Source: Chloroflexales bacterium ZM16-3 | Lineage (GTDB): Bacteria > Chloroflexota > Chloroflexia > Chloroflexales > Chloroflexaceae | Assembly: GCA_004138175.2 (NCBI GenBank) | Contig: RYFE02000023.1 | Coordinates: 1-64,000 of the forward strand | Direction of reading: 5' to 3' | Length of the DNA stretch: 64,000 bases | Part shown: one piece after another, positions 26,023-27,128 of the stretch | How the letters are laid out: each line of letters opens with the position of its first letter | Position numbering within the stretch: the stretch's first letter is position 1 | Made by a program: the position numbers and the translations under genes | Notes under the pieces: model-generated | The model's database searches: none | Seen by the model: the letters and a program-made list of their open reading frames with translations, nothing else | What the model was told of the DNA's origin: nothing

Positions 26023-26048
26023 CCCCAGCCTTCTCAGAAGGCTGGGGC
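26023..26048 (-). terminator. Terminator of the cobalamin riboswitch leader
   Basis: CCCCAGCCTTCT and AGAAGGCTGGGG form a near-perfect 12-bp stem followed on the minus strand by TTTCTATTT. It lies 50 bases before the btuF start and is the expression platform of the riboswitch upstream. Confidence 0.85.
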
Positions 26049-26099
26049 GACAGAACATCGGGCTAACCATCGCGGGTGCGATGATAAGGCGCGTGTCAT
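26034..26099 (-). CDS. Small leader ORF between riboswitch and terminator
   Basis: A 21-codon ORF with an excellent ribosome binding site (AAGGAGGA, 6 bases before ATG at 26099). It begins just after the riboswitch's conserved B12 box and its TGA lies exactly at the tip of the terminator hairpin, so its translation would run through the 5' arm of the stem. Peptide starts MTRALSSHPRW and ends APAF; it resembles nothing I know. It may be regulatory rather than functional as a peptide. Confidence 0.55.
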   Translation of the reverse strand: MTRALSSHPRWLARCSVAPAF

Positions 26100-26114
26100 G
26101 TTCGTCCTCCTTAG

Positions 26115-26265
26115 CGCGAGAAGGGGTGAACAAAAAGTACGAGGCAGGCTCCCTGGCTTCCGGCGTCCTCATCGGACAACGGTTACAGTTGCGGCACAGC
26201 GCTGGACTCACACCAGCTTCCACCTTTACGCCCTAGCATCCGGGCTTGCGGGTCACCTCGACACT
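26115..26265 (-). promoter_or_regulatory. Cobalamin riboswitch
   Basis: On the minus strand the conserved elements occur in order: GGTGTGAGTCCAGCGCTG, then CCGCAACTGTAACC, and the B12 box AGCCAGGGAGCCTGCC (26143-26158). AdoCbl or another corrinoid would bind and lower expression of btuFCD and possibly the downstream cob genes. Boundaries are approximate. Confidence 0.93.
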
Positions 26266-26600: not shown

Positions 26601-27128
26601 CTATAATGGCTCAAGGAATTCGGACACTCGGCCAGGCAAAAGAAAGGGAGCCTGACCCGATGGAAAAGGTTTACACGTCCGCCTTCAAGGCTCAGGTCGC
26701 GCTGGAACTGCTCAAGGAAGAGAAGACCCTGGCCCAGCTCAGTAGCGAGCATGGAGTGGGACCGACCGTGCTGTGCTCGTGGCGGGCCATCGCACGCAAG
26801 GGTTTGGCCTCGCTCTACGAGCGGCGAAACAACCTAGCCGACCAGCACGCCGCCCACGAGCAGCAGCTGGAGGATCTGTACGCCGAGATCGGTCGGCTCA
26901 CCACGCAGCTGCATTGGCTGAAAAAAAAGGGCTCTCCCGCACTTCCCGTGCAGGCAGAATACCTCCCTCTTGCACTATGAAGAATTTCCGCCTGTCGATC
27001 TGGAAGAATAAGCGCACATCAGCATGGGGCTTGACCCAGGGCTTATTCGCGCTAACAAACCTTTTTCATCGGGTCAGGCTCCCTTTCTTTTGCCTGGCCG
27101 AGTGTCCGAATTCCTTGAGCCATTATAA
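26601..27128. mobile_element. IS3-like derivative with about 70-bp inverted ends
   Basis: The first 70 bases (TATAATGGCTCAAGGAATTC on) recur inverted at the right end with one mismatch. Since the inverted copy includes the start codon region of the transposase gene, the right end appears to be a duplication of the left end replacing the missing orfB. The 5-base string GTGCC lies directly left of the element and, one base offset, right of it, a possible target duplication. About 528 bp. Confidence 0.8.
26660..26980 (+). CDS. IS3-family transposase OrfA (orphan)
   Basis: A 106-residue helix-turn-helix protein of the transposase_8 type: YTSAFKAQVALELLKEEKTL, ... LSSEHGVGP ... WRAIARKG, followed by a leucine-zipper-like segment ending in LHWLKKKG. 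The A8G run at 26931-26939, where IS3 elements frameshift into orfB, is present, but no orfB follows. The element is therefore non-autonomous. Confidence 0.75.
   Translation: MEKVYTSAFKAQVALELLKEEKTLAQLSSEHGVGPTVLCSWRAIARKGLASLYERRNNLADQHAAHEQQLEDLYAEIGRLTTQLHWLKKKGSPALPVQAEYLPLAL

Follow-up and report, generated by a model that had tools for sequence, protein, structure and literature searches.

A putative transcriptional cobalamin riboswitch of Chloroflexaceae with a predicted direct antiterminator and a conserved five-codon micro-ORF

The window analysed here is a 64,000-nt stretch of the genome of Chloroflexales bacterium ZM16-3, and the locus of interest lies on its minus strand (Table 1). 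A cobalamin riboswitch aptamer, which scored well above the RF00174 gathering score of 31.5 bits, is followed by a hairpin (P13), a 21-codon ORF, an intrinsic terminator and an operon whose first gene is btuF-like. A preliminary description of this DNA had reported the riboswitch, the ORF led by a Shine-Dalgarno (SD) sequence and a terminator with the ORF stop codon at its tip; all of these elements were recovered on the minus strand, at or near where it had placed them. The SD and the ATG of the ORF are separated by 6 nt (spacer ACGAAC). The terminator has a predicted stability of -22.8 kcal/mol, which none of 200 shuffled sequences equalled, and its U-tract is only moderate (TTTCTATTT). The idea that the ORF is an out-of-frame N-terminus of btuF was dropped, since btuF has its own start (ATG 25973) and a signal peptide. 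A truncated insertion-sequence-like element lies upstream of the riboswitch promoter: two 71-nt inverted repeats (26602-26672 and 27057-27127), 99% complementary and with 384 nt between them, enclose a short ORF whose product has a transposase HTH domain (PF01527, E = 5e-7).

Table 1. Features of the btuF leader and operon in the ZM16-3 window.
Feature	Position	Strand	Basis or remark
Promoter-like site TTGACA-N18-AATACT	26345-26316	-	Consensus scan, 10/12 matches, 0.3 expected by chance
Cobalamin riboswitch aptamer (RF00174)	26275-26126	-	cmscan 54.3 bits, E = 9.6e-11, model positions 1-189
P13 hairpin UGUUC-A-CCCCUU / AAGGAGG-AC-GAACA, containing the SD	26132-26100	-	Strands conserved in the family alignment
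Antiterminator (predicted)	26115-26041	-	Folding of the leader up to the terminator loop; conservation
AAGGAGG, SD of the ORF and 5' strand of the antiterminator	26112-26106	-	Sequence; conserved across leaders
21-codon ORF MTRALSSHPRWLARCSVAPAF, ending TGA	26099-26034	-	ORF reading
Intrinsic terminator, 12 bp	26048-26022	-	Precedes btuF; 3-nt loop is the UGA stop of the 21-codon ORF
btuF-like substrate-binding lipoprotein, first gene of the operon	25973-25011	-	PF01497 (Peripla_BP_2), E = 3e-46
Remainder of the operon: btuC/btuD-like genes for a FecCD permease and an ABC ATPase, then CobO-type adenosyltransferase and CbiB/CobD	25014-21482	-	Pfam matches

Cobalamin riboswitches were found in all 41 genomes examined from the host family, the Chloroflexaceae (named relatives: Oscillochloris, Chloroflexus, Viridilinea and Chloroploca), at more than 110 places. 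We collected 112 riboswitch loci and sorted them by the sequence 3' of the aptamer. The commonest leader type was that of the window (CCTTCTCG....AAGGAGG), and the addition of related families and of a second order brought this set to 94 leaders. The leaders are kin, so all the counts given below are less independent than they look. A DNA similarity search of plasmids matched only the aptamer core, in Thermus.

The SD lies within P13, in which UGUUC..CCUU is predicted to pair with AAGG..GAACA. With B12, the aptamer would favour P13, which would hold AAGGAGGAC..GAAC; the terminator would then form and the btuF operon would be off. Because P13, which would be stabilised by the B12-bound aptamer, contains the SD, B12 should hide the ribosome site, as the preliminary description had supposed. 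The two strands of P13 are conserved in the family alignment. The isolated hairpin folds at -9.8 kcal/mol, a stability not above that of shuffled sequences; no significant covariation was detected in P13, and pairing of its own strands showed no excess over swapped ones.

Leaders were folded from the SD to the terminator loop, that is, as they stand before the 3' arm of the terminator exists. In the window, GCU (26115-26113) and GG.GG (26110-26106) pair with CCCC-AGC (26047-26041) of the terminator 5' arm. This antiterminator overlaps eight of the 12 positions of the arm and stacks on a helix linking the ORF start to bases ahead of the terminator. The leader cut at the terminator loop had a fold z-score of -2.9, with two of 200 shuffles as stable. 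The same shape was common to most leaders: the SD (GG-A-GG) binds the C-run in the 5' arm of the terminator, and these pairs stack on a helix between the SD-start spacer and the bases ahead of the terminator. Of 70 leaders that have a start codon, 62 had an expectation of at least two pairs between the SD and the terminator arm; the share was 43% when the interior was shuffled with dinucleotides kept. The strands of the helix paired at -4.60 kcal/mol within their own leaders and at -3.90 kcal/mol (sd 0.15) when swapped between leaders, none of 500 swaps being as good. P13 and the antiterminator are mutually exclusive because the same strand makes both, and in the fold models the antiterminator excludes the terminator as well. 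Fold predictions and strand co-evolution thus place an intrinsic terminator before the gene and a helix that excludes both it and the aptamer-linked hairpin, as direct antitermination calls for, and direct antitermination is the best-supported layer of this system. Without B12, the SD strand of P13 would bind two other targets, the region just ahead of the terminator and the C-run in the terminator 5' arm, which would keep the base of the terminator from closing and let transcription continue. The contact between SD and C-run is short, consisting in most leaders of four pairs and a bulge, and may not be strong enough for antitermination. Of the 20 leaders that lack a start codon, 17 also had the predicted antiterminator, a share close to that among leaders with one. 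A standard antiterminator, which the preliminary description had mentioned as an alternative to its own model and as grounds for refuting it, is therefore present, made by the SD strand against the terminator 5' arm and kept with or without the ORF.

The model preferred in that description was a different one, in which B12, by way of P13, controls translation of the leader ORF and a translating ribosome prevents the terminator from forming, so that the ribosome itself acts as the antiterminator. The location of the SD within P13 agrees with such a mechanism, and in the fold model a ribosome with its P site at codons 16-21 removes the whole terminator (all 12 pairs). ORFs of 21 codons that end in the terminator loop also occur in leaders L050, L053 and L057 from another genus, and 18 leaders, many of them from Roseiflexus, have ORFs running through the terminator. 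However, the leaders closest to the window speak against it. Among same-genus leaders of btuF type, as called from the lipoprotein-like start of the next gene, the window has 21 codons, and the ORFs of L087 and L059 (both MTRAP-stop) and L080 (MPYTF-stop) end after five codons, 35-38 nt before the terminator. L073 and L064 have no start codon at all; the contig of L064 ends ahead of the next gene, and it is assigned to the btuF type by leader similarity only. Given the missing start codons and the early stops, a stop codon in the terminator loop is not the conserved design, and the two leaders without the ORF are of the kind that the preliminary description had itself named as counting against its model. 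In 45 of 93 leaders the ORF is at most five codons long, and the terminator was kept in 42 of these 45 when a ribosome was masked at the stop codon. With an RNA antiterminator about equally present in leaders that lack a start codon, antitermination by the translating ribosome is not the best explanation, and we regard it as unlikely for the family. For the 21-codon form of the window it is physically possible according to the fold model, although neither needed nor conserved. Taken alone, a single 21-codon ORF, or the position of its stop codon, would be within chance.

A comparison of related leaders gave a different result for the SD and the start of the ORF. A start codon lay 5-7 nt after the SD in 71 of the 94 leaders, and 42 of these 71 had a stop exactly at codon 6. 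Stops in the other two frames numbered at most nine in 74 leaders at any one position, and in the leaders without a start codon a stop at codon 6, in any of the three registers, was found in only two of 20 (Fisher's exact test: p = 9e-5). The 42 five-codon ORFs end with UGA (31), UAA (7) or UAG (4). Their codon 5 encodes Pro in 39 cases, with all four Pro codons used, codon 4 encodes Ala or Gly in 37, and codon 3 encodes Arg in 34 (CGC, CGU or CGA). The residues R-A-P or R-G-P occur in 32 of the 42, with the stop codon following in all 42, and the consensus is M-x-R-A-P-stop (MIRAP, MTRAP or MPRAP before the stop), with synonymous changes. When changes were inferred on an aptamer-based tree, codons 3-5 showed 60, of which 35 fell at the third position (p = 6e-5); for the three codons after the stop the figure was 44 of 137. 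In a second order (Thermoflexales/Roseilinea-type genomes), eight of 13 leaders encode MIRAP-stop, using other codons (for example GTG ATC CGC GCA CCG TAG and ATG ATT CGA GCG CCC TGA) and with a hairpin and sequence after the stop that are unalignable with those of the window type. The comparison indicates that M-x-R-A-P-stop is conserved across two orders of Chloroflexota, that it has the pattern of a short coding sequence, and that the SD with its micro-ORF is beyond chance, the conserved form having five codons and not 21. The R-A-P-stop is absent from the window copy itself, whose peptide begins MTRAL; by this comparison, the stop at codon 6 has been lost from the window copy, which makes the 21-codon form a derived one. 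The fallback offered by the preliminary description, an accidental ORF, is contradicted by this conservation. A conserved SD-led ORF, as expected of a leader-ORF attenuator, thus exists at the level of the family, and the 21-codon form of the window is not the conserved one.

Conceivably, the micro-ORF merely follows from RNA structure as a by-product and would then have no function as a translated sequence. In the Chloroflexaceae an RNA helix does constrain part of its codons: the start codon is paired in the antiterminator with a mean probability of 0.71, and CCGYGCCCC pairs with GCCCGG in many leaders. However, a structural constraint of this kind fits poorly with the use of all three stop codons and the excess of third-position changes, with the start codon being retained in nine of 70 leaders in which it is mostly unpaired, and with the persistence of MIRAP-stop in another order opposite a different partner strand. 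We consider it quite improbable. Another explanation is that the micro-ORF is an insulator: RNA pairing fixes the SD, ribosomes load inevitably, and an early stop keeps them off the terminator. This would account for the clustering of stops at codon 6, most of them 33-44 nt ahead of the terminator, and for the rarity of that stop in leaders without a start codon. It leaves the conservation of R-A-P with synonymous changes unexplained, though, losing the start codon would be a simpler solution, and many leaders have run-through ORFs. An insulator therefore seems rather doubtful, if less so than a by-product or a ribosome acting as antiterminator.

In folds with an assumed ribosome footprint, which are the only basis for the sign of the effect, a ribosome at the micro-ORF leaves the terminator intact and takes the SD strand from the antiterminator; therefore its predicted effect is that of a brake. 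Ribosome position did not decide terminator formation in the 42 of 45 masked leaders, and only the antiterminator would be affected. A ribosome-dependent antiterminator made from the strand after the micro-ORF was also considered and was dropped, as the terminator stays in these same leaders. Several Roseiflexus-type leaders (L209, L210, L213, L214, L216, L217 and L220) have an SD-led ORF without an early stop, whose frame crosses the terminator hairpin. Such run-through ORFs possibly represent the opposite arrangement of ribosome and terminator.

Our preferred reading, to which we assign a probability of roughly 0.6, is a cobalamin riboswitch of the transcriptional OFF type that works by direct antitermination and, added to it, a conserved micro-ORF that probably parks a ribosome on the ligand-free leader. 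In most relatives the SD-led M-x-R-A-P-stop micro-ORF lies within the switching strand, and the ligand-free leader would probably load a ribosome that pauses at the Pro-stop. A ribosome on the micro-ORF would block the antiterminator, which is opposite in sign to the effect proposed in the preliminary description; with the derived 21-codon form of the window, it could instead block the terminator. The sequences show the anatomy, its conservation and, in folds, the mutual exclusivity of the structures; the direction of the B12 response, translation, pausing and the sign of the ORF's effect are inferred. The conservation of the micro-ORF suggests an undescribed translation-sensitive layer in the switch of the relatives. 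A more specific version is tentative and falls somewhat short of even odds: the ligand-gated ORF (M-x-R-A-P-stop, or MTDP-stop or MTEP-stop) would park the ribosome via its C-terminal Pro, removing the switching strand from the antiterminator and integrating B12 with the rate of translation initiation or termination.

Other cobalamin platforms occur in the family. The second riboswitch of the same genome (L002; contig C73:171108-171256) has another P13 (CCTTCGCG..AAAGGAGG) and carries a four-codon ORF, MTEP-stop, and its relatives L085, L086, L088 and L092 have MTDP-stop. The occurrence of these ORFs in a different platform looks like convergence on a Pro-stop end. A third platform class (CACCCGCG..AAGGGGGUG; L091, L096, L101, L104 and relatives) has no ORF, and shows a long, classical and unambiguous direct antiterminator against its terminator. 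Still shorter SD-led ORFs were seen in cobalamin leaders L240, L248 and L033 (MRN-stop, MP-stop and MR-stop).

A riboswitch and a ribosome-dependent attenuator are commonly regarded as two distinct kinds of device. If the proposed mechanism is true, a conserved micro-ORF in the switching strand of a B12 riboswitch, whose peptide ends like known pausing motifs and recurs in two platform classes, would join them, and ribosome-pausing motifs would be extended to peptides of 4-5 residues at stop codons. The micro-ORF is a clean test case, as it has five codons and its start, peptide, stop and pairing are separable by mutation. For annotation, micro-ORFs so short are invisible to gene callers.

In the open-access literature searched, of which coverage was incomplete, a conserved micro-ORF in Chloroflexota cobalamin riboswitches was undescribed. 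The Pro-stop ends of the micro-ORFs resemble known ribosome-pausing motifs. TnaC senses tryptophan and acts against Rho; unlike TnaC, the Chloroflexota micro-ORF has, to our knowledge, no known role in metabolite sensing. The likeness to TnaC and to pausing at C-terminal Pro lies in the Pro codon directly before the stop, and MTDP-stop and MTEP-stop present Asp-Pro and Glu-Pro stops: in E. coli, termination can be slowed by a Pro at the position before the stop codon, and Asp-Pro and Glu-Pro are among the favoured sites of tmRNA tagging (PMC3985003), an effect that may vary between species (PMC7246954). The arrest peptides RAPP, RAPG and SecM share an R-A-P core with a nearly fixed Arg; in RAPP and RAPG this Arg is irreplaceable and a change of Ala to Gly is tolerated (PMC12992588). 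The R-A-P core recurs here, and R-G-P-stop also occurs. However, in RAPP-type peptides the nascent chain is long and the A site holds Pro or Gly (PMC10951233), whereas here the peptide has five residues and a stop codon is in the A site in all 42 cases. Therefore the micro-ORF does not belong to the RAPP type, and the relation is one of resemblance.

As in the known P13-controlled platform of RF00174, P13 follows the aptamer, competes with a downstream structure and precedes B12 uptake genes. It differs in that P13 holds the SD of the micro-ORF, not that of the regulated gene, and that the same strand forms the antiterminator. The nearest published cases are the uORFs of M. tuberculosis B12 riboswitches (PMC11260477) and the metA riboswitch of S. 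meliloti (PMC9373788). In the ppe2 and metE B12 riboswitches of M. tuberculosis, a translated uORF alters expression of the downstream gene (Kipkorir 2024, PMC11260477) by translational coupling, termination-reinitiation or possibly Rho (PMC11260477), whereas the ORF described here does not overlap the gene, has five codons that encode a conserved peptide, and is accompanied by an intrinsic terminator. The SAM-II riboswitch of S. meliloti metA likewise combines an SD and an upstream AUG with a Rho-independent terminator, which lies between the upstream AUG and the true start codon, but in that case a second, in-frame AUG serves as the start, with the SD acting at a distance, and no micro-peptide is conserved (PMC9373788).
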